DNA of 64,000 bases from Synechococcus sp. WH 8020 (GTDB lineage: Bacteria > Cyanobacteriota > Cyanobacteriia > PCC-6307 > Cyanobiaceae). The DNA lies in assembly GCF_001040845.1 (NCBI RefSeq), contig NZ_CP011941.1, positions 2,238,890 through 2,302,889 of the forward strand, given 5' to 3'. Shown piece by piece: positions 12,414 to 27,080 of this stretch (positions are counted from its first letter, which is position 1; each line of letters opens with the position of its first letter). The notes below the pieces were generated by a model. The model searched no databases, was not told the origin of the DNA, and saw nothing but the letters and a program-made list of their open reading frames with translations. The translations under genes were made by a program, and so were the position numbers.

Positions 12414-13568
12414 ATGGACGAACTCAGTGCATTGACACCGGAACTGAGCCGCTCCTTGTTGGCCTGGTGGGAGATGCATGGACGCCGGGATCCTGAGCAG
12501 AAGCCTTGGATGTTCACTCCTGAGGGGACATGGTCTGAGCCCTACGAGCATTTGAATCCCTATCCGATCCATGTCGCTGAGGTGATGCTGCAGCAAACAC
12601 AGCTGCAAGTGGTTTTGCCTTACTGGCAGCGCTGGATGGAGTCCTTCCCAACCCTTGAGGCGTTGGCTCAAGCCGAGGTGCAAACGGTCCTTTTGAGTTG
12701 GCAGGGGCTCGGCTATTACTCCCGAGCCCGTCGTTTGCATGGCTCTGCTCAAACTTTGCTGAAGCGCATCGGCTCTCAGTCCTGCGAAGACCCTCAGAGC
12801 TGGCCCCAGGAGCCAGATTTCTGGCTGGATTTGCCTGGGATCGGCCTTAGTACGGCAGGCGGCATTCTGTCCTCGGCTTTTAATAGTCCCCTGGCGATCC
12901 TGGACGGCAATGTGCGTCGGGTGCTGGCCAGGTATCAGGCTCATTCGCGCCCGCCGATGCGTGACCTGCGCTTGTTCTGGAACTGGAGTGACGCTCTTGT
13001 TGCGGCTGCACCCGGTCGGGCTCGTGATCTCAATCAGGCTCTGATGGACTTCGGAGCCACCGTCTGTAGTCCCCGTTCACCTAATTGCGCGTGCTGTCCT
13101 TGGCAGATGCATTGCTCTGCTTACGCTGCTGGCGATGTGGAGAGCTACCCCGTGAAAGAGACCCCTCGAGCCGTGCCTTTTCAAGTGATTGGCGTGGGTG
13201 TGGTGCTGAACGATGCAGGGGAGGTGTTGATTGATCAACGCCTGAATGAGGGGTTATTGGGTGGGCTATGGGAATTCCCTGGTGGGAAGCAGGAGCCAGG
13301 GGAGGCCATCGTTCAGACCATTGCCCGTGAATTGCAAGAGGAATTGGCGATCGACGTGTCTGTGGGTGAGGAGTTGATCAGTCTTGACCATGCCTACAGC
13401 CATAAAAAGCTGCGGTTTGTGGTGCATCTCTGCCAGTGGCAAAAGGGCGAACCCCAGCCGCTTGCGAGCCAGCAGGTGCGCTGGGTGCGTCCGGAGTCTT
13501 TGTCCGACTATCCCTTCCCTGCTGCCAATGCGCGCATCATTGCTGCGTTGTTGGACCACGTTTCCTGA
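12414..13568 (+). CDS. mutY: A/G-specific adenine glycosylase MutY with Nudix domain
   Basis: Removes adenine mispaired with 8-oxoguanine in base-excision repair. The helix-hairpin-helix glycosylase domain has the catalytic Glu56 (AEVMLQQTQ) and Asp164 (AILDGNVRR). The FeS cluster ligands are in place as Cys218-x6-Cys225-x2-Cys228-x5-Cys234. The C-terminal part (about 255-384) has a full Nudix box: GKQEPGE at 291-297 followed by RELQEEL. The MutY C-terminal domain shares the MutT fold but normally has lost the Nudix residues. The intact box suggests that this domain may still hydrolyse an oxidised nucleotide such as 8-oxo-dGTP (inference). Confidence 0.93.
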   Translation: MDELSALTPELSRSLLAWWEMHGRRDPEQKPWMFTPEGTWSEPYEHLNPYPIHVAEVMLQQTQLQVVLPYWQRWMESFPTLEALAQAEVQTVLLSWQGLGYYSRARRLHGSAQTLLKRIGSQSCEDPQSWPQEPDFWLDLPGIGLSTAGGILSSAFNSPLAILDGNVRRVLARYQAHSRPPMRDLRLFWNWSDALVAAAPGRARDLNQALMDFGATVCSPRSPNCACCPWQMHCSAYAAGDVESYPVKETPRAVPFQVIGVGVVLNDAGEVLIDQRLNEGLLGGLWEFPGGKQEPGEAIVQTIARELQEELAIDVSVGEELISLDHAYSHKKLRFVVHLCQWQKGEPQPLASQQVRWVRPESLSDYPFPAANARIIAALLDHVS

Positions 13569-13633
13569 ATTGGGGCGCGTTGGTTGGCATCACGCTTAGC
13601 CGTAGCCAGCCTTAAACGATCCGACTTGCTGTC

Positions 13634-14626
13634 ATGGCCGATCTGTCTGCGTTGGCTCCTCGCGTGTTGTGCCTGGGTGAGGCCTTGGTGGACCGGCTTG
13701 GTCCGCTTGGCGGGGATCCCGCTATAGCTGCGCCCGATTTGTGTGATGACCGACTGGGTGGGGCTCCCGCCAACGTGGCCTGTGCTCTCGCTCGGCTGGG
13801 CACACCCGTTGGCCTCGTTGGTCGACTGGGTGAAGATGCAATCGGGGCTGCATTCTTCGAGCTTTTCAAGGGCCGGGGTGTCGATGTGAGGGCGCTTCAA
13901 CGTGATCCCAGTCACCCAAGTCGGGTGGTGTTGGTTCGCCGCCATGCCAATGGGGAGCGTGTGTTTCAGGGATTTGCCGGAGATCACATCCTGGGTTTCG
14001 CCGATCAACTGCTGGATCGTGGTTGTTTGGAAGCGGTCTGGCAGAGCTTGGCCGATCAAGCTCGCTGGCTATTAGTCGGCACGATTCCCTTGGCATCGAT
14101 GGCTTCTGCAGACTCCTTGCAATGGGTGTTGGCTCAGGCCAAGGCTGCTGATCTTGCCTTGGCTTTAGATGTGAATTGGCGTCCAACCTTCTGGGATCTC
14201 GAGGCAGATCCTGCGGCGGGCCCCACCGTGGATGCGTTAGCGGCGATCAAGCCCTTGTTGGAGCAGGCCTCCTTACTCAAATTGGCGCGGGAGGAGGCGT
14301 TGTGGTTTTTCGGTAGTGATGATCCTGCCGTTATCGCTGCAGGTTTGCCGCGGCAGCCAGACGTGGTGGTGACGGATGGAGCCAATCCCATTCGCTGGTT
14401 GATCGCTCATGAGGCTGGAAGCATGCCGGTGTTTCAGCCCTCTCAGATAATCGATACAACGGGTGCAGGCGATGCCTTTACCGCAGGCCTATTGCACAGT
14501 TGGGATCGTCCAGTCACGGAGCGGTTGCGCTTCGCATCAGCCTGCGGTGCCCTTGTTTGCAGCGGCGCCGGAGCCATCGATCCACAGCCGCGAGAGCAGG
14601 ACGTTCTCGCTTTTCTCAATCAATGA
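13634..14626 (+). CDS. PfkB-family sugar kinase (fructokinase-like)
   Basis: ATP-dependent carbohydrate kinase of the ribokinase/PfkB superfamily, 330 aa. The first signature with GGAPANVACALARLG lies near residue 38, and the second signature DTTGAGDAFTAGLLH with the catalytic Asp is near residue 275. The order of motifs and the length match bacterial fructokinases, so the likely reaction is fructose to fructose-6-phosphate, but ribokinase-like activity on another sugar cannot be excluded. The stop codon overlaps the ATG of the deformylase gene (ATGA), so the two were cotranslated. Confidence 0.88.
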   Translation: MADLSALAPRVLCLGEALVDRLGPLGGDPAIAAPDLCDDRLGGAPANVACALARLGTPVGLVGRLGEDAIGAAFFELFKGRGVDVRALQRDPSHPSRVVLVRRHANGERVFQGFAGDHILGFADQLLDRGCLEAVWQSLADQARWLLVGTIPLASMASADSLQWVLAQAKAADLALALDVNWRPTFWDLEADPAAGPTVDALAAIKPLLEQASLLKLAREEALWFFGSDDPAVIAAGLPRQPDVVVTDGANPIRWLIAHEAGSMPVFQPSQIIDTTGAGDAFTAGLLHSWDRPVTERLRFASACGALVCSGAGAIDPQPREQDVLAFLNQ

Positions 14627-15128
14627 CTGTACGGGCGTTGCTACGGATGGGGGATCCGCTGCTGCGCCAGGTGGCCCAGCCGGTGATGGATTGCCAAGCC
14701 CCGCATTTAGTCGAGTTGGTCGTGGACCTTCAAGACACGATGGCAGCGCATTCCGGTGCCGGTTTGGTAGCACCACAGATTGGCGTTCCCTTGCGCGTGG
14801 TGATTTTCGGTGGTGGAAGCCCCAATCTCCGTTACCCCGATGCTCCAACGCTGCCGTTCACGGTGCTGATCAATCCTGAGCTGACGCCTTTGGGTGAAGA
14901 GCGCGCCCTGGGTTGGGAAGGTTGCCTCAGTGTTCCGGGTCTGCGTGGGGAGGTGAAGTGCTGGAACCGGCTGCGTTACTGCGGCTGGACGCCGGAAGGG
15001 GCTGGATGGATCGGACCGTAGATGGCTTCCATGCCCGTGTGGTGAAGCACGAATGTGATCACCTGGATGGGGTGCTTTCCCCTGATCGTCTCGATACCCT
15101 CAGGTCTTTGGCTTCATTGCTGAATTAG
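14623..15128 (+). pseudogene. def: Peptide deformylase, -1 frameshift
   Basis: Peptide deformylase removes the formyl group from nascent proteins and needs a metal bound by Cys and two His. The first frame runs from the ATG at 14623 and has GAGLVAPQIG and EGCLSVPG (metal-ligand Cys), then reaches a TAG at 15019-15021. The remainder, including the metal motif HECDHLDGVL, is in the next frame and ends at 15128. The shift lies at or near the GGGG at 14998-15001: one extra G there would join GWTPEG to WMDRTVDGFHARVV. It is therefore a recent pseudogene, a sequencing error, or a slippage site. As it stands the product lacks both metal-binding histidines. Confidence 0.8.
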
Positions 15129-16572
15129 AGCCAGCGGGTCGAATTCCCATCGTGCCCTCCTGAGTTAGGGGGGCCTCCACGATCCAGGTGTCCTTGTATC
15201 CCCCTCCTTGGGTGGCATTCACCACGAGTGAGCCCGCTGGTCTTGCGACTCGGGTGAGCCCAGCGTTCAGTAACGCCATGCTGTCTCCCCGATTGAGGAC
15301 AAAAGGACGGAGGTCGACGGCGCAGTGCTCAACGGTCCCGTTGATCAGAGTGGGAACTGTGGAGAGCTGCTGCAGGGGCTGGGCAATGAAATGCCGAGGG
15401 TTGCTCTGGATGCGTGCTGCCATCGCCGCTCGTTCTTGAGAAGACGCCTCTGGTCCCATCAGCATGCCCACGCCTCCAGCGCCGCTAACCTGTTTCACCA
15501 CCAATTGATCGAGCTCGCGAATGACTTTTTGCCGTTGGAGTGGTGCCGTGCAGTCGTAGGTGGGGACCTGCAAAAGCAGGGGCTCTTCACCTAGGTAATA
15601 GCGAATGATCACGGGCAGATGGCTGTAGATCAGCTTGTCGCTGGCGACTCCAACGCCCGGTGCATTTGCAATGGCTACTCCGCCTGCGCTGTATACCGCA
15701 TCAAGTCCAGGAACTCCTAGTAAGTGTCTTGTTGTTCCGTCGGAGCTGCTGATCTGGTCGTCGTTGCGCCGGTAGATCACATCCACCTGTTGACGTTCGT
15801 CTTGTTGATGCCAAACCCGGCCGCTTTCACAGTGCAGCTCTTGGGCTTCCACCAAGGCAATGCCCATCGCGCGCGCTAAGACCTGATGGTCATGGCGCGC
15901 GCTGCTGTTGCGACCTGGGCTGAGGAGGACGACGGTTGGAGATTCACTCCACGGTGCCAAGCCGCGCAGACCCGTCAAGAGTTGCTGTGGTGCGCTAAAG
16001 GGAGGGGCCAGTTGGAGACCGGTTGCCATCCAATCGAGTTGATCCTGCTGAACCCTGCGCGCCGTCAGGCTGAAACCGAGACCAAAGCCACGACGAAGAT
16101 TGTCTTCCAGCACCCGCCATTGGCCCTGGGAATCACGGATCAGATCCGGTGTGGCGATCGTGCACCAGCGCTGGCAAGGACTGGTTAAATCACGTAGCTC
16201 ACGTTGCCAAAAGATTGAACTTTCAAGCAAACCTCTCTGCAGGTGCCCATCTCGCACGATGTGCTGCGGGCCATAGGCATCGGTAAGGAATAGTTCAATC
16301 GCTTGCAAGCGCTGGATCAGACCAGCTTCGAGTCGCTGCCAGTCCCGCTGACTGATCAAGCGGGGGAGTGGATCAAAGGGGAACAGATTATCGCGGCGAT
16401 GGGCTTTCGCTTCCGCTTCAAGGTGGAAGATGGCACCCAATGTCTGGAGTTGTTGCTGGGCTTTGCTGCCGTCCTCACGCAATTGGGCTGGGCCTGCGTT
16501 CTCAAGATTTTGGAGCAGCTGCCACAGGGCTGGTTTGAGCTGTCCTGACTGATTGAGGTCGTATTCATTCAC
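15100..16572 (-). CDS. Circularly permuted ATP-grasp ligase
   Basis: Member of the circularly permuted ATP-grasp family (DUF404/DUF407 type), 490 aa, predicted to form an amide or peptide bond using ATP. Visible family segments are RGLLESSIFWQRELRDL, RVLEDNLRRGFGLGFSL, VDVIYRRNDD, GVGVASDKLIYSH, VVKQVSGAGGVGML (ATP-binding) and NATQGGGYKDTWI near the C-terminus. Relatives often sit beside alpha-E and transglutaminase genes, but here there are none. It is the last gene of the minus-strand block. Its start overlaps the cupin gene by 4 bases and its 3' end overlaps the deformylase remnant by 29 bases. Confidence 0.85.
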   Translation of the reverse strand: MNEYDLNQSGQLKPALWQLLQNLENAGPAQLREDGSKAQQQLQTLGAIFHLEAEAKAHRRDNLFPFDPLPRLISQRDWQRLEAGLIQRLQAIELFLTDAYGPQHIVRDGHLQRGLLESSIFWQRELRDLTSPCQRWCTIATPDLIRDSQGQWRVLEDNLRRGFGLGFSLTARRVQQDQLDWMATGLQLAPPFSAPQQLLTGLRGLAPWSESPTVVLLSPGRNSSARHDHQVLARAMGIALVEAQELHCESGRVWHQQDERQQVDVIYRRNDDQISSSDGTTRHLLGVPGLDAVYSAGGVAIANAPGVGVASDKLIYSHLPVIIRYYLGEEPLLLQVPTYDCTAPLQRQKVIRELDQLVVKQVSGAGGVGMLMGPEASSQERAAMAARIQSNPRHFIAQPLQQLSTVPTLINGTVEHCAVDLRPFVLNRGDSMALLNAGLTRVARPAGSLVVNATQGGGYKDTWIVEAPLTQEGTMGIRPAGSNSAMKPKT

Positions 16573-17237
16573 GCTCTTTCAGCTTTAGCCCGCCTTTGTT
16601 GAAGGAGGTCGTTCTGTTCTTGCTTCAGTTGGCGATCAGCCGTGAGACCTGTTCTGCAGGAGAGCACCTGATCTTCTGGAAGATCGAAGAACACTCCCCC
16701 GTCGGTGGTTTGAATGCAGCCTTCTGCCACATTGAAGATGCGGGCTGAGCCGGTGATCTTTGAGCAGCGACTGCTGGTTCCATAGATATGCAGGCTAAGG
16801 AAGGTCGACTGGCCAGTATTCCCCATCTGGTGGATTAACCCGGGTTCAATGAGGCGAATCTGTTGAGGGGCAAAGGGCTGATTGGCTTTGTGAGAAATCA
16901 CATTCCCCTGTAATCCAAAGCTCTGATGCTGCGCCTCACCAAAACATTGAACGGCTCCCCACAGGGCACTGCCGTGGTCATGGATGGCGGAGTGATCCCC
17001 TGGGAGCCAAGTCATCACCATCACTTCAACATGGCTGCCGTGCCAGACCAGCTGTCTTCCATAGCTCTCGGTTGGGGGGTGCTGTGGCGTGGCCCAAGGG
17101 ATGAGATCGCTGGCTTGAATGTGGCAGCTCGCGATGCATTGAATGAGCTCGGCGCTCGATGGTTCACGCAGCGTGTTCAGCTGCTTGATCAAGACCTTCA
17201 GGCTGGGTGGAAAGGGTTCGGTGGTGCTCAGCGCCAT
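16569..17237 (-). CDS. Cysteine dioxygenase-like cupin
   Basis: Cupin of 222 aa resembling type I cysteine dioxygenases, ferrous enzymes that oxidise the thiol of cysteine or a related small thiol to a sulfinate. The three-histidine iron site is visible as His86 and His88 in IHDHGSALWG and His136 in LIHQMGN. Cys98 (AVQCFGE) and Tyr152 (LHIYG) are candidates for the cofactor-like Cys and Tyr seen in the family. The C-terminal 40 or so residues form a charged helix (KQEQNDLLQQRR). It sits between two ATP-grasp ligases in an operon, so the substrate may be a thiol precursor or a conjugate rather than free cysteine (inference). Confidence 0.8.
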   Translation of the reverse strand: MALSTTEPFPPSLKVLIKQLNTLREPSSAELIQCIASCHIQASDLIPWATPQHPPTESYGRQLVWHGSHVEVMVMTWLPGDHSAIHDHGSALWGAVQCFGEAQHQSFGLQGNVISHKANQPFAPQQIRLIEPGLIHQMGNTGQSTFLSLHIYGTSSRCSKITGSARIFNVAEGCIQTTDGGVFFDLPEDQVLSCRTGLTADRQLKQEQNDLLQQRRAKAERA

Positions 17238-17238
17238 C

Positions 17239-18735
17239 TCAGCGGAGGTTGAGCTCGAGGATCACGACGTCGAACCATGTGTTTCTCAACTTTCCAATGC
17301 GTTGTTGAGTCCCCACGATTCGGTACCCATGTCGTTGGTGAAATTCGACACTATCTGAATTGCTCGCGACGACTTTGGCAACGAGATGACAGTCTCCCTG
17401 CTGTCTCGCTCGCTGGATGAGTTGACGCTGAATTGCGCTGCCGATGCCTCGGTTTCGCTCTGATTGGTGAACGTAGACGGAGGTTTCGGCGGTGTATTGA
17501 TAACCGGCCCTGTTGGAGTAACGCTTGAGTTCGCCCCAGCCCACAACTTCATCGCGATCTTCGGCGACGAGTAGCAGCTCGTGGGGGTCACCCCCCGCTT
17601 GCTTTAAGGCAACATCCTTGGACCCAAAGCGACGGTCATCCATGGTGATCCCGCCAGCATCGATGGCCTGTTGGTAGATCCAGGCGATGGCGGCATGGTC
17701 GCTGGTCTGAGCGGTTCGCACTTTGAGAGCGGATGGTCGCTTGGTGAAATCCTGTATCCAGGCAAGCAGATGGGCCATAGCGTTGCTTTGATACAGCTCA
17801 TCGAGCCGCATAAAGCCACCCACATTGCCGGCATTGATCTCGCTGATGCACCAGCGTCCGCAATCGTCCATCAGGAAGTCGTAGCCCAAAATCCTCAGTC
17901 CCATGGAGCGGTAAGTGGGCCAAGTGGAAGCGATAGCGATGCGTTCATCGTCGCCAATGGTGTCAGCGACACAATCTCCTCCAGCGGCGCGATTGTTCAC
18001 CCAATGTCCATGCTTCGATCGGCGTCGGAAGGCGCCAAGGATGATGCCATCAACGACGACAACTCTTTTGTCTCCGGCCGTGGTGCCTCGAAGAAAACGG
18101 CTGAATTGAAGTGGTTCCTCGCTGCCCTGCTGTAGTGCCTTCAGCAGCTGAAGAAGGGACGTGTCTGCGCGTTCTGCTTCGTGCACATGATCTGTTATCC
18201 ATCCAGATGTTGTGCGCTGAATGCGAAATACTCCTTGGGCTTGCGTGCTGTTGCTCCGTTTCGCCACCACGGTTCCGTGATCGGCAATGAAGCGCTCGAT
18301 GGTATTGGGATCGCAACTGCAGAGGGTTGGTGGTGTGAAGGTACTGGCAACTTCATTGAGGAAAACTGCTTCCATTTGGCGTTTTTTGCTCGATGGCCGA
18401 TTCAGAAACCTCAGTGAGGGCTCCAAGCTTTGGAGACGATTCAGATATCCGTCTCGAAAGGGTTTCAGTGTTCGGCAAAAGGCCGCACTGATTTCGTTCA
18501 GAGGTAGTGCTGTCGGCGAACGAGAGTTCAGCTGAAGAAAGTCCGCTTGATGCAGCGGTTGGGGAAGACGAACAGCTGGCAGTGTGCTTTCTGCCGTTGA
18601 GGACGCAAGAGCGCTGGAAGACACGTGCCAGGACGTTGTGGAACCAGCGGCGACTGCTTTGTAAAACCCAGCGACATCCGAATCAGCTGTCGGATAGGAG
18701 GAAGGATCACAGATCAGCAGCAAATTGCCACTCAT
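17239..18735 (-). CDS. ATP-grasp ligase fused to GNAT acetyltransferase
   Basis: A two-domain protein of 498 aa. Residues 1-335 look like a glutathione-synthetase/RimK-type ATP-grasp ligase: Lys159 (VVAKRS) for ATP, GDKRVVVVDG at 221-230, and the metal-binding ISEINAGNVGGF at 297-308. Residues about 337-498 are a GNAT N-acetyltransferase with the acetyl-CoA loop ERNRGIGSAI, close to the phosphinothricin/amino-acid acetyltransferase group (TSVYVHQS, FHQRHGYR). A natural reading is one polypeptide that makes a peptide-like bond and N-acetylates substrate or product. The start overlaps the exporter gene by 4 bases, and the cupin gene begins 1 base after its end. Confidence 0.85.
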   Translation of the reverse strand: MSGNLLLICDPSSYPTADSDVAGFYKAVAAGSTTSWHVSSSALASSTAESTLPAVRLPQPLHQADFLQLNSRSPTALPLNEISAAFCRTLKPFRDGYLNRLQSLEPSLRFLNRPSSKKRQMEAVFLNEVASTFTPPTLCSCDPNTIERFIADHGTVVAKRSNSTQAQGVFRIQRTTSGWITDHVHEAERADTSLLQLLKALQQGSEEPLQFSRFLRGTTAGDKRVVVVDGIILGAFRRRSKHGHWVNNRAAGGDCVADTIGDDERIAIASTWPTYRSMGLRILGYDFLMDDCGRWCISEINAGNVGGFMRLDELYQSNAMAHLLAWIQDFTKRPSALKVRTAQTSDHAAIAWIYQQAIDAGGITMDDRRFGSKDVALKQAGGDPHELLLVAEDRDEVVGWGELKRYSNRAGYQYTAETSVYVHQSERNRGIGSAIQRQLIQRARQQGDCHLVAKVVASNSDSVEFHQRHGYRIVGTQQRIGKLRNTWFDVVILELNLR

Positions 18736-19730
18736 GTCACTGGCGATGCCGCGTCAGAGGCATTGAGGGTTAGTTCGGCAATGCGTTGCTTGTTTTGACT
18801 GGGTTGCTGCTTTGTGCTGGGCGATAAAGCTGTAATAACAACACCAATCATGATGATGATCAAACCACTCACTTGGCTATCGCTGGGCCACTGACGATTC
18901 AATAAGCCTGCTGCCAAAACTCCGATGGCAGGGGCTGGAGTGGCCCACCTACCTAAACTAATGGAATCAAGTTTGTGAGTTGCGTCAAACCATAGAAGTT
19001 GTGCGATGACGATCACTATGAGGGCGTAGATGCCCATTAATATCCATAGTCGCCCGTAAAAAGCGTCGGCAAAATGATGTGGTCCGTAGACAATATTGGC
19101 GATAATAAAGAAAATTATGCTTGAACTTGCGTTGCGAATAAAGACCAGGCTCTTAAGGGTCACGTTTTGATTCAATACTGCCTTCCCAAGAATTGATGAA
19201 ATGGCAAAGACAACTGTGGAGGCGAGGATTAAGGCGTCTCCCCTGTTAATGGTTCCATCGCCACCGATCAGAGCAACAACCAGGGTTCCAGCAATAATGA
19301 AGCTGAATCCAAACCATTCTTGGCGAGCGATCGTTCGACCGAAGATCAAGGCGCCTGAAAGGGCATAGAGAACAGGGGCTAATCGGCCAAGAAGAATGGC
19401 GTTTGTTGATGAGGTGTAGGTGAGTCCAGTGAAGATCAGTCCGGAGGTGAGGGCCGCAAGGCCTCCGTCGATGAGCAATGTGAGTTGAATCATCCTTGGA
19501 AGTTGTCTCAAGTCTGAGAAAATCGGTCCAGGCCGAAACCACGTGATCAAAACCAGCGCAGCGCAGAGATTGCCGACAAACAACACATTGCAGAAGGAGA
19601 GAGCATCCTCGACTCCAGGCGCGAGGGTCATCGCGTTGGTCACCATGTAGGCGATTAAAACCGGACGGAGCGCAGCTAACACCCGAGATAGCAAGACCTC
19701 AACGCGAGGGTTAAGTGATGTACACCTCAT
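18732..19730 (-). CDS. EamA/DMT-family transporter
   Basis: Integral membrane protein of 332 aa of the drug/metabolite transporter superfamily. About ten hydrophobic segments are arranged as two EamA halves: GLAALTSGLIFTGLTY and NAILLGRLAPVLYALSGALIFG in the first, DALILASTVVFAISSILGKA and SLGRWATPAPAIGVLAAGL in the second. Such proteins usually export amino acids, nucleotides or other small metabolites. The ATG overlaps the stop of the upstream gene by one base (TAATG on the minus strand), and the stop overlaps the ATP-grasp/GNAT gene by 4 bases. This close coupling suggests it exports the product of this operon (inference). Confidence 0.88.
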   Translation of the reverse strand: MRCTSLNPRVEVLLSRVLAALRPVLIAYMVTNAMTLAPGVEDALSFCNVLFVGNLCAALVLITWFRPGPIFSDLRQLPRMIQLTLLIDGGLAALTSGLIFTGLTYTSSTNAILLGRLAPVLYALSGALIFGRTIARQEWFGFSFIIAGTLVVALIGGDGTINRGDALILASTVVFAISSILGKAVLNQNVTLKSLVFIRNASSSIIFFIIANIVYGPHHFADAFYGRLWILMGIYALIVIVIAQLLWFDATHKLDSISLGRWATPAPAIGVLAAGLLNRQWPSDSQVSGLIIIMIGVVITALSPSTKQQPSQNKQRIAELTLNASDAASPVT

Positions 19731-20479
19731 TACTTCGGGGATCGATAGCTGTCTGGATTGGCCCTTAGAGCAAGCAGGTTGTCAAAGCGAATCACTTCAC
19801 CTCTGAGTTCCAATGGTTGAGCAACCAGGGACAGTACGCGTTCGTTCACTGTTCGGTTTTGATCGTCGATGAGGACAAAGTCAAGAGCTGCGCCGTCGTT
19901 TTGGCGCACATGAAACACGGCGGGCACGCCACCGCTGATGCAGCGAATGGCGCAACCCATATGGGTTTTGCCGCTTCCTGGTTTCATCACCCCAGAGAAA
20001 CATTTGCTGTCGACGATTTCGCCGCGCAGGGTGAATTCCCCTTCGGAGTAGCCCACGACGTTGGCTTCAGGGGTTCCTAAAGGAGGCCGCATGGGAGTGG
20101 CTTTGCGTGTGTTCATCACATCTAGGGGCCCACGGCTGAAGAGGGAGCCGCGCACCTTCACCCAGTCGCCAACGTGGTCCATGACCGCAGGGGGCGGAAT
20201 GGTTTTGCCGGGTCCTGCAAGAAGCACCCTGTTAAATGTCTGGTCCTGAGTGGTTTGACCGGGTTGGGGAACCAACAGTTGGGCCCCACCGGGGCCATCC
20301 AGGAGCCACCCGCTGAGCTCTTTGACAGGCTGCCTTCGGCCTGGACCGTATTGATTGTGGAGGCTTGGCCCCCAAAAGCCCAACACCACGATGAGCGTGA
20401 CCAGCACCGTCAAGACGAGGAGCACAAAGCGCTTGAGCCCCGGCGGTAAGGGGCGGTAATGGACGAAGAAATTATTCAT
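19730..20479 (-). CDS. Membrane-anchored protein with Cys/His motif
   Basis: Unrecognised protein of 249 aa. One membrane segment near the N-terminus (about residues 17-36, FVLLVLTVLVTLIVVLGFW) should leave the rest in the periplasm. The most striking part is DSKCFSGVMKPGSGKTHMGC with AIRC after it: Cys160, His173, Cys176 and Cys180, a pattern that could bind a metal, FeS cluster or haem, or form disulfides. The flanking sequence looks like two beta-barrel modules (WVKVRGSLF, LELRGEVIRF). It starts 4 bases inside the end of the Rieske gene, so it is probably a periplasmic partner of that membrane redox protein. Confidence 0.75.
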   Translation of the reverse strand: MNNFFVHYRPLPPGLKRFVLLVLTVLVTLIVVLGFWGPSLHNQYGPGRRQPVKELSGWLLDGPGGAQLLVPQPGQTTQDQTFNRVLLAGPGKTIPPPAVMDHVGDWVKVRGSLFSRGPLDVMNTRKATPMRPPLGTPEANVVGYSEGEFTLRGEIVDSKCFSGVMKPGSGKTHMGCAIRCISGGVPAVFHVRQNDGAALDFVLIDDQNRTVNERVLSLVAQPLELRGEVIRFDNLLALRANPDSYRSPK

Positions 20480-21573
20480 CGCTGAACGGCTGCTATTGGA
20501 ACGGGGCTGATCAAAATCCGACCCTCCCGGAGCTGAACGGGGAAGGTGGGAACGCTCTCATGGAATGGAGGTGGGGAGGCGCCGGTTTCGAGCTCGTATT
20601 CGTAGCCATGCCATGGACAGACGGCGCAGTTGTTCACAATGCGACCCTCTCCCAGCGGACCATTTTGGTGTTGGCAGACGTTGGAGAGCGCGAAGACTGA
20701 GGTTCCCCTGCGAAACACGGCGACGCGCTCACCGCTCAGCATCACCACCTTCGCGGCTCCATCGGCAATGTCCTGGAGGGCTCCCACATCCACCCAGGAG
20801 TGCCCTGGTTGAGCAAGGTCAGCCCTATCGGAATACCATTCCCTCCAACCACTAAGAAGGTGAAGCGTGAGAAGGGCGAGGGCGCCACTGAGAACCAGCA
20901 CGGCGAGCCAGGGGTTGCGGTTTGTTTGCAAAGCTCCCAGCAAGACATGACCCACGAGGGCTGCGTAGCCCACATACACGCTCATGTGGATGGCTTTCCA
21001 CACGGGAGCGGTGAGATTGGCCAGCCAGAAGTCATGACTGATGGCCGCCATTACAAAGAGCACAACGAGGCCAATGACGCCGAGGAGTTCGAAGGGAAAG
21101 AGGGCCAGGCTGCCGAAATGGCGATTGACAGTAAACAGGCTGACCAGTGGCTTCAGGTCGCCAAAATTGTTGTACCAGGCCACAGATCCATAGAAGGCCC
21201 AGGGCAGTTTCGGGGTCTTCATGCCTAACCAAATCCAGGGTTGGCTCGGCAGGGTCCAACCGCTCACATGAATGGCTCCCAGCAGGAAGACCATCACCCC
21301 CATATGACGTCTGTTAAAAAGCAGGGTGTGAAACCAGGGATGAAGCCGACTCAGCGGCCCGATGGCCAAGGTGAGATGGAGCAAGATGTAAGCCGCACTT
21401 CCATAGGCGCGAATCGCCACCCCATCGGTTTCGAGTTCGATTCCGCGCAGATCGGCGATCCAATGGCTGGTCTGCATGAAGGCCAGGAGGTACAGCGCCA
21501 TCAGTCCGATCAGGATCGCGTCGTAGATGACCTTGCGACGTGTCCATTGCACCGCTACGTACTGATGAGTCAT
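20476..21573 (-). CDS. Ferric reductase-like membrane protein with Rieske domain
   Basis: A 365 aa fusion of a membrane cytochrome-like domain and a Rieske [2Fe-2S] domain. The first 245 residues have about six or seven helices with several histidines (LLHLTLAIGPLSRLHPW, MGVMVFLLGAIHVSGW, KAIHMSVYVGYAALVGHVLLG), resembling the ferric-reductase/YedZ haem-binding fold. The C-terminal Rieske domain has ligands Cys300, His302, Cys319 and His322 (CQHQ...CPWHGY). It probably moves electrons across or at the membrane, but the donor and acceptor are unknown. Both ends overlap neighbours by 4 bases. Confidence 0.85.
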   Translation of the reverse strand: MTHQYVAVQWTRRKVIYDAILIGLMALYLLAFMQTSHWIADLRGIELETDGVAIRAYGSAAYILLHLTLAIGPLSRLHPWFHTLLFNRRHMGVMVFLLGAIHVSGWTLPSQPWIWLGMKTPKLPWAFYGSVAWYNNFGDLKPLVSLFTVNRHFGSLALFPFELLGVIGLVVLFVMAAISHDFWLANLTAPVWKAIHMSVYVGYAALVGHVLLGALQTNRNPWLAVLVLSGALALLTLHLLSGWREWYSDRADLAQPGHSWVDVGALQDIADGAAKVVMLSGERVAVFRRGTSVFALSNVCQHQNGPLGEGRIVNNCAVCPWHGYEYELETGASPPPFHESVPTFPVQLREGRILISPVPIAAVQR

Positions 21574-22076
21574 GTTCGGGCTCTTGCGGGGCGGGATGGG
21601 GAGCTTGGAATGCGGATCAGCGTGTGGGCATCGTTATTGGAAACGAGCAGGATGGTTCCTCCTTGCATCGCAGCTGGAAGCCACCATCCGCGGCTGCCGA
21701 GACCGCTCAGGCTGCCGATCACCGTGGCATTGCTGAGGTCCTTTGGCTGTGGATGGGTTGGGGTCCACACGATCAGGGGATCACTGATGGGTAGCTCTCG
21801 CTCTGGAGTGATCTGGAGCCACAGTTGCCCGCCAGGATGACGGGAGAGCTCGAGATCAATCGTGGTTGCATCAACCTGTTTGGTTTCGTGAATCAGAGGT
21901 TGAAGGTCGGGGGGAGAGGCTTGGTGGTATCCCGCGGCAAGGAACAATGGGTCACTGCTAGGGCTGGCGACGGGGCGATCTGGTCGTTGTAGAAGAGCCG
22001 CTGCCGCTAGCAGGGGAAGCCCAATGGCGATGGCTGTCATCAAGCGGCGATGCCAGCGTCGGAGGGACGTGATCAT
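21570..22076 (-). CDS. Membrane-anchored hypothetical protein
   Basis: Unrecognised protein of 168 aa. After a short basic N-terminus there is one hydrophobic segment (LMTAIAIGLPLLAAAALL, about residues 12-29), then a soluble domain likely outside the cytoplasm, rich in beta-strand-like stretches (QLWLQITPE, PLIVWTP, ATVIGSLSG, TILLVSN). The frame is open upstream to 22166, but the ATG at 22076 overlaps the stop of the small upstream gene as ATGA, so I use that start. It overlaps the Rieske gene by 4 bases at its end. Its repeated position beside the Rieske gene suggests a role in the same membrane complex (inference). Confidence 0.68.
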   Translation of the reverse strand: MITSLRRWHRRLMTAIAIGLPLLAAAALLQRPDRPVASPSSDPLFLAAGYHQASPPDLQPLIHETKQVDATTIDLELSRHPGGQLWLQITPERELPISDPLIVWTPTHPQPKDLSNATVIGSLSGLGSRGWWLPAAMQGGTILLVSNNDAHTLIRIPSSPSRPARART

Positions 22077-22267
22077 GGCCTGGCCGTGGTGCGATGGGCC
22101 TGTCGTTCCGTCGGCGGTTGACTGCCCCGCCAAAGCCGTTTGATCATCAACGGCCAAAACACGCAAAGCCCTGGAATGATCAGGATTCGGAAGCCAGGTG
22201 CGCGCCAGCTGCGTGCGGAGGTGTCGATCCTTTGCACGCCGAAGAGGGCGATCATCGTTGCGATCAC
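22073..22267 (-). CDS. Small membrane protein, start uncertain
   Basis: A 64 aa protein from a GTG at 22267, with hydrophobic stretches (VIATMIALFG, ILIIPGLCVFWPLMI) separated by a polar segment and ending in a basic tail. Its stop overlaps the next ATG (ATGA), which supports it as a real first gene of the overlapping chain. The reading frame continues upstream to about 22330 with protein-like residues (LDPFESVVSALLRAGSAYLG) but has no ATG, GTG or TTG there. Either translation begins at the GTG, or the original start codon has been lost or is unusual. Confidence 0.58.
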   Translation of the reverse strand: MIATMIALFGVQRIDTSARSWRAPGFRILIIPGLCVFWPLMIKRLWRGSQPPTERQAHRTTARP

Positions 22268-22420
22268 AAGGCTGGCGCCGAGGTAAGCCGATCCAGCCCT
22301 TAAGAGGGCGCTGACGACGCTTTCAAAGGGGTCCAGAACAAAATTTCAGTACCTAAGTTCAGGGATAGCAAGGTCACACCATGGAGACCACTCTGTTGAG
22401 ATCACTCAGTGAGCCAACGG

Positions 22421-23395
22421 TTAAAACGGCGTCATCGGCTCTGGATTCTCGATGTCGTAATCGATGATCTCTGCAGGTAGTCCCCGTAGAGACTCTTTGG
22501 GATAGATCGTGAAATCTTCGACGCGTTTGAACAGGGGTAAAAGCACCCTCGCGAGGGCATTGGGAGCTCCGTAAAAAAAGGTGTGATGTCCGAGGAGGAA
22601 TTCGGTGGTCCCTGTCCCTGCGTCACGATCGCAATCGTTCAGGAATTGGCGCATGCTGATGCGTTCTTCCGCTGACAAGCTTGGATGTGCCGTCACTGGA
22701 AAGTCGCGTTGGGCTGCAATGAGCCCAGCGTTGCGCCAGTTGATCTTGGAGAGGTTTTGGATGAGAGATGGGCGTTCATGGCTGAAGTCAACGCATACCA
22801 GTTGCTGTTCCTCAAGGGTCATCACCTCCTCGATGCAGTGGCGCTGAAGCAAGCGCCACTTGGTTCGGGCATCGTCATGCACCACAAGCGAGCAAAGTCT
22901 GGCGCGCTTGTAGGAGCTGATCAGATCCGTGTTGGATGGGCTACGCCCTAAAAATTGAAAAATGAATTGGGACCCTGTGCCGATGTAGTCATCCAAGATC
23001 ACGATCGCGCGTTGTCTGCGATCCTCGTGACTGTGATGCAGGGTCTCGATCGTTTTGAAGTGGTTGACGGACAGACAATTCGCTTTGCGGTAGACGTATG
23101 AGGCGATGTCGCCGCTTTTGCAGACGAACGCTCGGGTGAAGTCGATGTCCGTGAATCCATCGACGTCAAATCCGTCATCGCGAAGATCCATGCAGAGGCG
23201 CTGGTGGAGCAAGCGGCACTCGCGCAGCATGCGCGTCCAGCTGTGAAGCTCCATGCACTCCAGAAGCCGGATGGCGATCGCTTGATCTTCAGCAGGAAAT
23301 TGCGTCAGCCAGCGTTGGATGGCATTGAGGCTGATCTCGGGTTCGTTCCAGGCATGGCTGAGGCTCTGTAATTGTTGCGCGGCTGTAGGCATCAA
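22421..23395 (-). CDS. Phosphoribosyltransferase-like protein (PRTase-CE type)
   Basis: A 324 aa protein. The segment VILDDYIGTGSQF (residues 132-144) resembles the PRPP-binding loop of type I phosphoribosyltransferases, and the overall pattern (a helical N-terminus, a core around residues 85-180, a long C-terminal extension) recalls the PRTase-CE group described by comparative genomics in conflict and defence contexts. The assignment is from motif recognition only. It lies 50 bases after the glutamine-synthetase-like gene on the same strand and 153 bases before the small membrane gene. It could transfer a phosphoribosyl group in the pathway of this cluster or work independently. Confidence 0.6.
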   Translation of the reverse strand: MMPTAAQQLQSLSHAWNEPEISLNAIQRWLTQFPAEDQAIAIRLLECMELHSWTRMLRECRLLHQRLCMDLRDDGFDVDGFTDIDFTRAFVCKSGDIASYVYRKANCLSVNHFKTIETLHHSHEDRRQRAIVILDDYIGTGSQFIFQFLGRSPSNTDLISSYKRARLCSLVVHDDARTKWRLLQRHCIEEVMTLEEQQLVCVDFSHERPSLIQNLSKINWRNAGLIAAQRDFPVTAHPSLSAEERISMRQFLNDCDRDAGTGTTEFLLGHHTFFYGAPNALARVLLPLFKRVEDFTIYPKESLRGLPAEIIDYDIENPEPMTPF

Positions 23396-23445
23396 GTTCC
23401 ATCGCTGTTGGGTCTGGGAGCAGCCCTTGAGCTGCGGCTAAGGCC

Positions 23446-24801
23446 TTAGACGAGTCCTCCAACGATGGGCCACCAGCAACGTTCATTGGCCTGCTGCTGC
23501 GCAGACTTGGTTTCTGCGTTGCGGATTTCTGCGGCGAGGCTGTCCAAGAGCGATCCATGCAGCAGGGGGCCCATCGCTTGAAGCAGGACCTCATCGTGCT
23601 CGAGTGCTGTTCGCGCTTCAACCAGGCTGGAAGGAAGTCGGTCAATGGTGCGGTCCTTCACCAGGGCGGGATCACCGCTCTGTTCCGCTGGGAGGCTGCG
23701 TTTATGCCTTAGGGCATCGAGAACTTGGGCCTGGAGTGCACCCAGCAGCAGGTAGGGATTCGCTGTGGGATCGACCGCTTTTATTTCGAGGTGGGCGGGG
23801 CTCTGATCGACGGTGGCGGGGATCAAGCGAACGGCGGCTTCTCGGTTTTCCATTCCCCAAACCTGGAAGGGGGCGGCCCAACTGCTTGGGACCAGCCTTA
23901 AATAAGAAACAGGTGATGGGCTTGCAAGGGCGACCAAGCCCGGTAGCTGCTCCAGCACACCAGCGATCAGAGCTTGACCTTCCGGACGCAGTCCGTAGGG
24001 GCCAGGGCCATCCTGAAGCAATGGTCCTTGCGCATCGTGCACGCTGAAGTGCAGGTGACCGCCATTCCCAACCCAGTCGAGCCGGGGCTTGGCACTGAAG
24101 CTGCAATACCAGCCGAAGCGGCGTGTCACGCGCTGGATCAGCAACCGTGCTCGGATGAGTTGGTCCGCTGCTTGAAGCGGTGCCTGAGCCGCGAAGGACA
24201 ACTCGAATTGGGAGGGTCCGTACTCAGGGTGGAACTGAATCCAGTCCACATCGGCGGCATCCAGAGCTTCCAGCAAGGTCGTGGCGTAATCAAGGCCTTC
24301 AATCAGGCGATCCGCTCCATAGGGCCCACCGCTAATCACGGCCTTTGGGGCCCCCTCGTCGTCTGGGGTGATGACGACCCACTCCAGTTCAAATCCGGCA
24401 GTGAGGGAGAGTCCTGCAGCCCGTAGTTCCTCTCCCATACGGCGGCAGAAGTGGCGCTGATCGGCGCCATATGCCTCTCCACTGATGGGGTCCCAACGCT
24501 CGCCGGCGGCCCAGGCCCATCCCTGCTGTGGGTCCAGCATCGCCAGAGACGAGGGATCTGCCTTGAGGCGAAGGTCACCATCTGGCCGGGTGAGGCGATG
24601 GGCGGGATCGATGCGTCCGTCGGAGCGAAACGCGTCGGAGATCGGCGAGAAGCCGACGCCGACATCGATGGCGAGTTGCCAGCGACGCCATGGCACCACT
24701 TTGACCAGCGACTCGCCTGCGTGGTTGTCCCAGGTGATCGCAACCCGGCGTACGCCCTTGGCGCTGTCCGCTTCGAGGGATGGATCATGCTCCGTGCTCA
24801 T
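23446..24801 (-). CDS. Glutamine synthetase-family ligase (gamma-glutamyl ligase-like)
   Basis: A 451 aa member of the glutamine synthetase superfamily. Core motifs are present: FELEW (metal-binding glutamates), FHPEYGPSQFELSF, GNGGHLHFSVHD (the GS histidine motif), MENREAAVRLIPA and HLEIKAVDPTANPYLLLGALQAQVLDAL. The sequence is far from housekeeping GlnA and closer to the PuuA/GlnT-like ligases that join glutamate to amines other than ammonia. The substrate is unknown. It heads a run of minus-strand genes containing two more ATP-dependent ligases. No glutamine riboswitch is apparent in its 128-base upstream gap. Confidence 0.82.
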   Translation of the reverse strand: MSTEHDPSLEADSAKGVRRVAITWDNHAGESLVKVVPWRRWQLAIDVGVGFSPISDAFRSDGRIDPAHRLTRPDGDLRLKADPSSLAMLDPQQGWAWAAGERWDPISGEAYGADQRHFCRRMGEELRAAGLSLTAGFELEWVVITPDDEGAPKAVISGGPYGADRLIEGLDYATTLLEALDAADVDWIQFHPEYGPSQFELSFAAQAPLQAADQLIRARLLIQRVTRRFGWYCSFSAKPRLDWVGNGGHLHFSVHDAQGPLLQDGPGPYGLRPEGQALIAGVLEQLPGLVALASPSPVSYLRLVPSSWAAPFQVWGMENREAAVRLIPATVDQSPAHLEIKAVDPTANPYLLLGALQAQVLDALRHKRSLPAEQSGDPALVKDRTIDRLPSSLVEARTALEHDEVLLQAMGPLLHGSLLDSLAAEIRNAETKSAQQQANERCWWPIVGGLV

Positions 24802-24929
24802 GGCTTGGCGTGCAGTGTTTCCAGGATGAAGCCTGCTGCGTTGAGACGCTGCACTCTTGTTGCCTTGGTGTGGCGTCTTGGGCTGAAACAGTGATTGATC
24901 AGAATGAAGGTTGAGAAGGAGGGCGATTC

Positions 24930-25115
24930 ATGGTTGTCATGCCAAGCCGCTTGCCATGGTTGGCCCTGCTCGCTGCTGTCGTTTTGGCATTAGTGGTGCA
25001 TCTTCAGGCTGCATCGGCCTTGCCGTTTTGGGCTGGTATGCCTGCTTGGGTGTTGATGTTCATCGTCCTTCAGGCGGCACTCACCCTGATCGCGGCTTGG
25101 ATCGCCCGCCCATGA
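24930..25115 (+). CDS. Small membrane protein, symporter partner (DUF3311-like)
   Basis: A 61 aa protein with two hydrophobic segments (LPWLALLAAVVLALVVHLQ and WVLMFIVLQAALTLIAAWI). Small two-helix proteins of this sort, often grouped as DUF3311, are commonly encoded directly before sodium:solute symporters, as is the case here. The stop codon overlaps the symporter start as ATGA, indicating coupled translation. Function is unknown; it may stabilise or regulate the transporter. Confidence 0.75.
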   Translation: MVVMPSRLPWLALLAAVVLALVVHLQAASALPFWAGMPAWVLMFIVLQAALTLIAAWIARP

Positions 25116-26569
25116 CCACCACCCTGATTTCTGCGCTCATCTCACTTGTTGTCTACCTGTTGGCTTTGCTCTGGCTAGGTGCTCAGAGTCTTGGGGGACA
25201 AACCAACAGCGCCGACTCCTATTTTTTGGCCGATCGCCGCCTGCGTGCCGGTGTGCTGTTTTTCACACTGATTGCAACCAATTTCAGTGCTTTCTTCTTT
25301 CTTGGCTTTGCTGGCGCGGGATATCGAATCGGGATTGCCTATTACCCAATGATGGCTTTTGGAACAGGATTAGCCGCTCTCAGCTTCGGCAGCCTTGGCT
25401 GTCGGGTGCGGAGACTCAGCGCTCAACATGGCCTCATCACCCCTTCCGAATTGATCGGCCATCTCCTGCCTGGGGAAGGGGTGCGCTTATTGGTGCTTGC
25501 CGTCATGGTGCTGTTCACTCTTCCGTATTTGGCCCTGCAGCCTTTGGGTGCGGGGTATTTGCTGGAAAGTCTCACAGGAGGCGTCGTGCCTTTTGAAGTG
25601 GGAGCAGTCCTGCTCACGGTTGTGATTGTGCTCTATGTCGTTGGCGGCGGGATGCGAGCCGTGGCGCGCACCGATGTGCTTCAAGGAGTGCTGATGTTTT
25701 TGCTGATGCTCATGGCTTTTGTGGCTGTCGCCATGGGTGTTGGTGGCGTTCAAACTGCAAATCGCACGCTTTTGCAACAGCTTCCTGATCTCTTTAGCGG
25801 GGCTGGACGCAATGATTTTTTTACGCCTCGAATGATGGCGAGTTACTTGCTCCTTTGGCCGTTATGTCTTCCGATGTTTCCGCAGATGCTGATGCGTTTT
25901 TTCGCTGCTGGGGATGACCGCTCGCTGAAACAGTCGATGGTGCTTTACCCCGTCGTGGCGGGAGTGCTGTTTATTTGTCCCGTGATGATCGGGATGTGGG
26001 GTCATCTGTCCTTCCCCGATCTGGTGGGTCGCGCATCCGATCAGATCATGCCGTTGATGCTTGGGCGTTACAGCCCGGAGTGGCTCACAGGAATCGTGAT
26101 GGTGGGGGCTTTGGCAGCGTTTATGTCCACTTTGGATTCGCAGTTGTTGGCCCTGTCTTCCATGCTGACCCGCGACTTATATAAAAGGTATTGGCGTCCG
26201 CAAGCGTCTTTGCCGGAGCAAGTGCGGGTCGGGCAGCTCGTGGTGATCGCACTTGCTGTCTCTGGTCTGGTCATTGCCCTTCGTCCGCCGGAGGCAATTT
26301 TGTCGCTGGCAACACACGCGTTTTCGGGTCTCGCATTGTTGTTCCCGATGCTGGTGGGGGCGGTTTATGGCCTGCGATGGTCCGTTATCGGCGCCATTTT
26401 GTCGGTTATCGGGGGAGAAGCCGTTCTGCTGGGGTTTGCCACGGGCGTGATTCCAGAGGTGTTCCAGGGGGGCTGTTTGCCTTTGATCCCAGCACTGTTG
26501 GTTGCGTGCTTGATTTTGGTTGTGGATCAGGTCATCTCTCGCTGGTTGTCGTCTTGCGTGCAGGCGTGA
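25112..26569 (+). CDS. Sodium:solute symporter family protein
   Basis: Inner-membrane transporter of 485 aa from the SSS family (PutP/PanF-like), predicted to take up a solute together with Na+. It has about 13 membrane helices. The early segment SADSYFLADRRL is a family landmark, followed by TNFSAFFFLGFAGAGYRIG, YVVGGGMRAVARTDVLQG and the helix with FMSTLDSQLLALSSMLTRDLY, which is part of the sodium-binding region. The substrate is not evident. I use the ATG at 25112; the frame is open further upstream but only as a shadow of the small partner gene. The last 38 bases overlap the convergent tsaE. Confidence 0.9.
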   Translation: MTTTLISALISLVVYLLALLWLGAQSLGGQTNSADSYFLADRRLRAGVLFFTLIATNFSAFFFLGFAGAGYRIGIAYYPMMAFGTGLAALSFGSLGCRVRRLSAQHGLITPSELIGHLLPGEGVRLLVLAVMVLFTLPYLALQPLGAGYLLESLTGGVVPFEVGAVLLTVVIVLYVVGGGMRAVARTDVLQGVLMFLLMLMAFVAVAMGVGGVQTANRTLLQQLPDLFSGAGRNDFFTPRMMASYLLLWPLCLPMFPQMLMRFFAAGDDRSLKQSMVLYPVVAGVLFICPVMIGMWGHLSFPDLVGRASDQIMPLMLGRYSPEWLTGIVMVGALAAFMSTLDSQLLALSSMLTRDLYKRYWRPQASLPEQVRVGQLVVIALAVSGLVIALRPPEAILSLATHAFSGLALLFPMLVGAVYGLRWSVIGAILSVIGGEAVLLGFATGVIPEVFQGGCLPLIPALLVACLILVVDQVISRWLSSCVQA

Positions 26570-27056
26570 CTTTCGGGCATTGCAGCGAGATGGTGCGTCC
26601 CCCGCCAGGGGCGTAATCGAGAGCTAAAAACCAGGCGTCAGGGAGAGCAAGGCTGAGCCTTTCAGGCCACTCCACCACGAGTAGGGCTCCCATCGCAGAG
26701 GCTTCTTCTTCTTCTTGAAGGAAGAGGTCGTTGGCTGCGAAGGCTTGCTCGAGGCGGTAGAGGTCGAGATGGATCAGTGGTGGGGTGCCTTCGGGGTAGT
26801 GCTGAGCCAGTGCAAAGGTTGGGCTGGTGATCGGTTCCTGGATTCCTAGAGCATCGGCAAGCCCCTGCACCAGAGAGGTTTTGCCTGCACCGAGTGGTCC
26901 CTGTAGGAGCAGGATGTCGTTTGGCTTGAGGCGCGCTGCCAGCATCCGGCCAAGGCCTTTTGTGGCCTCGAGATCGTCAAGGATCCTTGTCTCATCTGTA
27001 GATTGGCGAATAAGGGAGCCCGAAGCCTCGGCGTCTCCGAAGTATTTATCGTTCAC
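26532..27056 (-). CDS. tsaE: tRNA threonylcarbamoyladenosine biosynthesis ATPase TsaE
   Basis: ATPase that works with TsaB and TsaD in making t6A37 of ANN-decoding tRNAs. The Walker A motif GPLGAGKT is at residues 53-60 and is followed by [13 protein letters not shown] and HLDLYRLE (family signatures), with the VVEWPERL motif further on. The start is uncertain: the first 20 residues are not family-like, and 27056 is close to the divergent ahcY gene, so a start further inside is possible. Its end overlaps the symporter gene by 38 bases. Confidence 0.88.
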
Positions 27057-27080
27057 ATCCTCCCCAGGGAGCTTTTCAAT

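Follow-up and report, generated by a model that had tools for sequence, protein, structure and literature searches.

A conserved, putative biosynthesis and export gene set with a co-inherited redox module in Synechococcus sp. WH 8020

Layout of the gene block

The DNA analyzed here is a 64,000-nucleotide stretch of the Synechococcus sp. WH 8020 genome (contig NZ_CP011941.1, positions 2,238,890 to 2,302,889; below, the window), in which ten consecutive minus-strand genes between positions 15100 and 24801 apparently represent a real and undescribed system, a conserved core for biosynthesis and export accompanied by a co-inherited redox module. A first-pass annotation, made from the sequence alone, had called the block a biosynthesis-redox-export set, a description now supported by a core that is inherited together and keeps the same gene order in Moorena. 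All ten genes lie where that annotation had placed them, and eight of them, from 22267 down to 15100, are tightly coupled, with overlaps of 4 or 1 bases and a single 1-base gap.

The core begins with orf64 (22073..22267), a small membrane protein whose relatives adjoin an orf168 relative in L007, L008, L011 and other loci (L numbers denote loci, G numbers genomes), and orf168 (21570..22076), an anchored, beta-rich protein; the stop codon of the former and the ATG of the latter overlap by 4 bases. The open reading frame (ORF) of orf168 can be read as 198 amino acids from position 22166, and its true start is most likely the ATG at 22076, giving 168 amino acids, because its relatives start there. 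Next comes, with a 4-base overlap, a single fused protein (20476..21573) consisting of a ferric-reductase-like membrane domain and a C-terminal Rieske domain, followed, after another 4-base overlap, by a membrane-anchored protein with a Cys/His motif (19730..20479). The gene for a DMT/EamA exporter (18732..19730) shares 1 base with the Cys/His gene and 4 bases with the gene for a GSHB-type ATP-grasp ligase fused to a PAT/ArsN1-like GNAT domain (17239..18735), which in the window is one gene, not two. Beyond a 1-base gap, a cupin of the cysteine dioxygenase (CDO) family (16569..17237) completes the core. It overlaps by 4 bases a circularly permuted ATP-grasp gene, which is accessory, as are a PRTase gene, 153 bases upstream of orf64, and a GS-like gene a further 50 bases away. 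Pfam matches above the cut-off were obtained for CP_ATPgrasp_2, CDO_I, GSH-S_ATP, Acetyltransf_1, EamA, Rieske, Ferric_reduct, PRTase-CE and Gln-synt_C; the Cys/His protein, the 198-amino-acid reading of orf168 (orf198) and orf64 matched no Pfam family.

Distribution of the core and the redox module

Searches with the fused ATP-grasp-GNAT protein at E 1e-20, counting the window's own genome (G000), identified carriers in 3/151 genomes of its family and 4/386 genomes of the cyanobacterial phylum sample. The four phylum carriers are the window's genome, a second genome of the genus (G075), a genome of the same family and another genus (G009), and a Moorena genome (G473, the record that contains L028). 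G075 has the whole block with the same neighbours on both sides. In G009, orf64, orf168 and the Rieske, Cys/His, DMT, ATP-grasp-GNAT and CDO genes are present, the PRTase gene adjoins them in the opposite direction, and the circularly permuted ATP-grasp and GS-like genes are missing from the 19 kb read. Moorena locus L011 retains the core order, with seven tblastn matches of 38-51% identity and an orf168 relative at the expected place; here ATP-grasp and GNAT are two separate genes. The order orf64, orf168, Rieske, Cys/His, DMT, ATP-grasp, GNAT, CDO is found again in L020, L021, L022, L028 and L040, four of which are from Moorena (L011 and L028 being one record). Because the core order recurs in Moorena, the block is more than a chance arrangement.

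Scanning named genomes with a four-row ATP-grasp alignment yielded 31 named loci, 24 in cyanobacteria, three in Pirellulaceae and one each in Akkermansiaceae, Myxococcota, Alphaproteobacteria and another bacterium; several end at contig edges, many lie on contigs of metagenome-assembled genomes (MAGs), and the counts were made by hand from the table. The ATP-grasp gene shares its locus with a CDO gene in 20/31 cases, a GNAT gene in 20/31 and a DMT gene in 22/31, and at least one of these three is present in 27/31. A Rieske gene accompanies it in 13/31, with a Cys/His gene in those same 13. In the ATP-grasp tree, covering 32 of 34 loci (L041, where the gene is split, and L042, where it is short, were left out), the three picocyanobacterial sequences group together, apart from the 22 other cyanobacterial ones, with moderate support for their exact placement; L035 and L039 branch off as a divergent clade of their own.

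On viral contigs, none of the 70 pattern matches encodes a relative. A plasmid-borne version of the fused ligase-GNAT protein was considered and rejected: of 49 matching records, none covers more than 80% of the query, and each of the 20 listed aligns with just one half, the ligase (24-27% identity, two annotated gshB) or the GNAT domain (33-36%, with ArsR or ArsN1 annotations). In Leptolyngbya sp. PCC 7375 (L041:10007-14018), where a split ATP-grasp gene is accompanied by a CDO gene broken into two pieces around a 381-amino-acid ORF that looks transposase-like by eye, the cluster seems to be decaying. A second family of ATP-grasp proteins adjoins a decarboxylase gene in Moorena (L021:19088-19990) and the core ATP-grasp gene in an alphaproteobacterial MAG (L034:11067-11981).

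In cyanobacteria, the Rieske gene of the redox module mostly accompanies the ATP-grasp gene. In the phylum sample, the Rieske/ferric-reductase protein (E 1e-40) is present in exactly the four ATP-grasp carriers, two of which belong to one genus, and in none of the 382 non-carriers. Among the 30 genomes reached through the ATP-grasp loci (all but that of L040; E 1e-30), it was detected in 21, namely 20/23 cyanobacteria, one of these 23 being the Moorena genome already counted as G473, and the Myxococcota genome. CDO was detected in 24 of the same 30. Frequent separation of ligase and Rieske genes, which the first-pass annotation named as grounds for refuting its reading, occurs in part: for 9/20 Rieske-bearing cyanobacteria the Rieske gene lies off the ATP-grasp locus, either on another contig (drafts, in which the distance is not readable) or far away on the same large scaffold (G504, G526), and it is still present in those genomes. 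In eight such stretches, relatives of orf64, orf168, the Rieske protein and the Cys/His protein remain together, the orf168 relative being only a 74-amino-acid ORF in two of them.

The Rieske and Cys/His genes also occur as a pair. On Rhizobium plasmids, in the two of five matched records that were opened, a Rieske-annotated gene is directly followed by a relative of the Cys/His gene, about 32% identical over the matched part; the sequence comparison covered the Cys/His protein, the Rieske likeness being by annotation. On one plasmid (L103:5392-7636) the two genes stand downstream of an SDR oxidoreductase gene and two small hypothetical genes. Because the pair stands there without the other genes, it probably exists independently and was recruited into the block.

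Predicted chemistry and competing readings

The sequence comparisons support the earlier assignment of a CDO-type cupin, an amide or peptide ligase, a GNAT and an exporter, by Pfam and, for the cupin, by conserved residues. The best PDB relatives of the cupin profile are cysteine dioxygenase entries (E 9e-12), and the profile was aligned with 4qm8/3eqe, which we take to be from B. subtilis. Residues R61, H86, H88, H136, H150 and Y152 are kept in at least 93% of 24 rows, positions that presumably correspond to the three-His iron site, the substrate Arg, and the His and Tyr of the S-H-Y group. The cupin is thus predicted to be of the CDO type, oxidising cysteine to its sulfinate. In two related loci the CDO domain is extended: L096:7023-8678 encodes a fusion to a methyltransferase domain (Pfam), and L095:6990-8699 reads alike by eye, which may point to a related, methylated product. 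A long protein with a C-terminal part resembling cyanophycin synthetase (scanned in L017) adjoins biosynthesis or redox genes in L017, L098, L093 and L094.

For the ATP-grasp domain, the closest PDB relative is E. coli glutathione synthetase (1gsa, E 2.6e-11). It belongs to the same fold family as GshB by sequence, but falls far below the GshB equivalog cut-offs of NCBIfam (74.9 versus 299.05 for TIGR01380 and 83 versus 272 for NF003573) and carries HWVNN in the substrate-loop stretch where GshB has ETRGN. The GNAT domain matches ArsN1 best among NCBIfam models and phosphinothricin acetyltransferase as well, each below its equivalog cut-off (111.5 versus 170 and 53.4 versus 300). N-acetylglutaminylglutamine synthetase combines GNAT and ATP-grasp in one protein, the fusion plan seen here; the window protein matches that model in its GNAT part alone and remains below its cut-off (22.3 versus 569). 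Arsinothricin and phosphinothricin acetyltransferases modify the free amino group of amino acids whose side group is acidic and tetrahedral, and for that reason a sulfinate amino acid is favoured as the GNAT acceptor.

The Rieske protein exceeds the cut-off of PF01794 (Ferric_reduct; 33.7 versus 28). It has five hydrophobic segments in a simple scan and a C-x-H...C-x-x-H Rieske site; C300, H302, C319 and H322, together with H90, H102, H180, H196 and H209, are kept in at least 93% of 16 rows. The conserved histidines would suit a membrane domain that carries haem. In the Cys/His protein, a single hydrophobic segment lies at the N terminus, and a motif, C160-x4-M165-x7-H173-x2-C176-x3-C180, is invariant in 13 rows; the structural model of this protein (mean predicted local distance difference test score, pLDDT, 80.1; predicted template modelling score, pTM, 0.70) suggests two OB-like barrels with the motif loop at low confidence. 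Assigning a function from this structure was attempted and abandoned, as the OB-fold matches are weak (Foldseek best E 2.3e-4 at a template modelling score of 0.22; VIA best Z 6.7) and give no functional clue; against PDB sequences the profile reached E 0.11 at best. The protein encoded by orf168 likewise has one N-terminal hydrophobic segment, and Foldseek returned nothing at E 0.001 or better for its model (pLDDT 76.9, pTM 0.58).

Our preferred reading, held tentatively and at somewhat less than even confidence, is that the block makes and exports a cysteine-sulfinate amide or dipeptide carrying an N-acetyl group, and that a co-inherited transmembrane redox module accompanies this pathway. 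In a plausible order of steps, the cupin would turn cysteine, or a derivative of it, into the sulfinate, the GNAT domain would acetylate a free alpha-amine, and the ATP-grasp domain would convert a carboxylate into an acyl phosphate for coupling to an amine; the resulting N-acetylated sulfinate amide or dipeptide would leave through the EamA protein. Decarboxylase genes next to the DMT gene in L017, L098 and, truncated, L014 speak for this reading. Electrons may pass from a cytosolic Rieske centre through haems in the membrane to the Cys/His protein anchored on the outer side, and orf168 and orf64 are candidate partners of this conduit. Judged by co-occurrence only, the redox module most likely serves the exported product, which such a conduit would most likely finish, reduce or protect. 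Picocyanobacterial carriers have ATP-grasp and GNAT fused in one protein and a PRTase alongside the cluster, to which the window's lineage adds another ATP-grasp and a GS-like ligase.

Several observations weigh against this reading. The cupin passes the Pfam cut-off of PF05995 (CDO_I) only marginally (23.8 versus 23 bits; the L011 copy scores 24.3), and in the S-H-Y group the serine falls outside the set of positions conserved in at least 93% of the 24 rows. CDO was not found in 6/30 ATP-grasp genomes, two of them with an ATP-grasp of the divergent clade, and four loci (L032, at a contig end, L034, L035 and L039) carry the ATP-grasp gene without other core genes; many of the records are draft assemblies or MAGs. 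At E 1e-30 the Rieske protein went undetected in 9/30 genomes, namely the cyanobacteria G500, G505 and G525 (only the last with a divergent ATP-grasp), those of Pirellulaceae, Akkermansiaceae and Alphaproteobacteria, and one other bacterium. For the two Rhizobium stretches (12-15 kb), the gene tables, which are incomplete, list none of the ATP-grasp, GNAT, CDO and EamA genes. Given the nine genomes in which it is missing and the separate Rhizobium pair, the redox gene lies outside the minimal pathway. A promoter and terminator scan was uninformative (2 and 9 sites versus 3.2 and 8.8 expected). Finally, the window's genome has no close relative of the pyridoxal phosphate (PLP)-dependent decarboxylases that accompany some related loci, its best match being 32% identical, as in sister genomes without the island.

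A broader claim, which we consider somewhat unlikely, is that the product belongs to a new class of exported metabolites, N-acyl peptides with oxidised cysteine sulfur (sulfinate or sulfonamide) that a stand-alone ATP-grasp/GNAT pair would build and that, in cyanobacteria and a Myxococcota lineage, a Rieske-haem-Cys/His conduit of their own would finish on the far side of the membrane from the cytosol, the biosynthetic half having spread more widely, to Planctomycetota and Verrucomicrobiota.

It is unlikely that the product is a self-protected antimetabolite, in which the sulfinate, or a sulfonamide made by the cupin, would be a warhead that the ATP-grasp joins to an amino acid, the GNAT acetylating free warhead as self-resistance before export. 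The affinity of the GNAT domain to ArsN1 and phosphinothricin acetyltransferase and an extra peptide deformylase gene at the island end would suit such a role, but the GNAT stays under both curated cut-offs, and the deformylase gene is frameshifted here and has no match in L008. A precedent exists in the altemicidin/SB-203208 sulfonamide pathway, where, as far as the excerpt of PMC6331615 describes it, the cupin dioxygenase SbzM turns cysteine into a sulfonamide precursor and SbzI and SbzC are GNAT acyltransferases. The likeness lies in a cupin acting on cysteine combined with GNAT acyl transfer (SbzM itself was not compared by sequence), whereas aldehyde dehydrogenase, carrier proteins and an aminoacyl transfer enzyme were not recognised by eye among the 23 families, core included, that recur in at least 3/34 loci, and an ATP-grasp stands in their place.

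An acetylated or amide-linked compound of the cysteine-sulfinate or taurine type, secreted as an organosulfur osmolyte or as overflow and neither toxic nor related to metals, is likewise improbable. A taurine route in Synechococcus sp. PCC 7335, credited to Agnello et al. 2013 in the excerpt of PMC8153620, resembles the present set in its CDO-family cupin, and some related loci have a PLP decarboxylase gene close to that of the CDO or of the exporter: beside the DMT gene in L017 (Pyridoxal_deC) and L098 (76% identical to that of L017), truncated in L014, and in Moorena L097 about 1.6 kb from a second CDO gene (44% identical). These four loci contain both decarboxylase and CDO. The nearest NCBIfam model of the L017 enzyme is diaminobutyrate decarboxylase, below its cut-off, and by our reading the sequence is cysteine-sulfinate decarboxylase-like. 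Matches of at least 43% identity over most of the protein occur in 13/28 named ATP-grasp genomes, all cyanobacterial, with two further partial matches (63-64%); they are mostly unlinked, and the counts show no enrichment because the controls without ATP-grasp are two sister genomes alone. The window differs from the PCC 7335 route in adding ATP-grasp, GNAT, exporter and redox genes and in having no close decarboxylase, and therefore the taurine link does not extend to its genome. An osmolyte kept in the cell would also not be expected to come with its own exporter and a redox module across the membrane.

The suggestion of the first-pass annotation that the product is a metal ligand is weak, and we regard a metallophore-like role, in which the product would capture iron or copper outside the cell for reduction by the Rieske/ferric-reductase module, as very unlikely. 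The Ferric_reduct match is above its cut-off and the Cys/Met/His motif of the anchored protein could bind metal, but no TonB receptor or other recognised receptor gene was seen by eye among the same 23 recurring families (unlinked uptake genes were not searched for), a single ABC ATPase family recurs, in 3/34 loci (L016, L025, L027), and Pirellulaceae and Akkermansiaceae MAGs have the biosynthesis genes without a detected Rieske protein. Least probable is that two independent neighbours, a cluster for a metabolite and a membrane redox operon of a generic kind, were brought together by chance or co-transfer, since the free-standing Rhizobium pair and the off-locus Rieske genes that would suggest it are set against a phylum sample in which the Rieske protein occurs solely in the four ATP-grasp carriers, two of them of one genus, and against its presence in most cyanobacteria reached through ATP-grasp, of which one had been counted with those four.

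As the first-pass annotation had stated, no described system with this set came to light: the literature searches, judged from titles and abstract starts, returned no description of it among the matches listed. Parts of the gene set may be mentioned in the 2009 survey of amidoligases by Iyer and colleagues. Other predicted peptide systems that pair a metal-binding cupin with a ligase-like protein, some with an efflux transporter, would follow a related kind of logic by analogy, as far as the excerpt of PMC2922099 goes. If the preferred reading of an exported N-acetylated cysteine-sulfinate compound is right, it would tie the scattered ATP-grasp/GNAT/CDO set to a concrete chemistry, that of oxidised cysteine sulfur, and give a functional setting to a transmembrane redox module also found separately in rhizobia. 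By conjecture, the product might explain part of the unidentified dissolved organic sulfur from such cells.

Accessory genes, island and neighbouring features

The three ligases listed by the first-pass annotation are not the conserved feature of the block. The circularly permuted ATP-grasp (15100..16572, minus strand; Pfam) has a 48-51% identical copy elsewhere in 12/13 picocyanobacterial genomes, and the block's own copy is confined, like the GS-like gene (23446..24801, minus strand; 2/13), to the window's genome and G075. The PRTase-CE protein (22421..23395, minus strand; Pfam) resembles retron type III-A PRTase models (E 2.8e-14) and is present in 3/13, that is, in all three picocyanobacterial carriers found. 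None of the three genes has a match in the 31 named loci. The nearest model for the GS-like ligase is gamma-glutamylputrescine synthetase, whose NCBIfam cut-off it does not reach (217.3 versus 650).

The block lies within a stretch of about 10.3 kb (14605..24915) that is shared by the window's genome and G075 and missing from two close relatives, G034 and G101, whose DNA is contiguous across the site, passing from window position 14604 (14619 in the second) to 24916. Their flanks are 84-86% identical to the window, with no match to the block, and in G123 and G482 no core gene was found near the fruK relative. The flanks of G075 are 89-90% identical to those of G034 versus 81-85% to those of the window, and the block itself is 87.2% identical between the window and G075. 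These identities would fit either exchange between lineages or loss in G034 and G101; overall, the cluster is patchily distributed and has probably moved horizontally.

The left end of the island is occupied by the extra peptide deformylase gene (14623..15128, plus strand), which overlaps the fruK stop codon; two frameshifts set it apart from the G075 copy, which is intact. Besides it, the window's genome has one intact and one broken copy, and sisters G034 and G101 have one each. A role for this gene in resistance was considered and dropped, given the frameshifts here and the other copies in the genome. Rfam yielded nothing at gathering score within 13000-27500. Elsewhere in the window (37407-39613, minus strand), two adjacent genes look EgtD- and EgtB-like (ergothioneine) by eye from the ORF listing.

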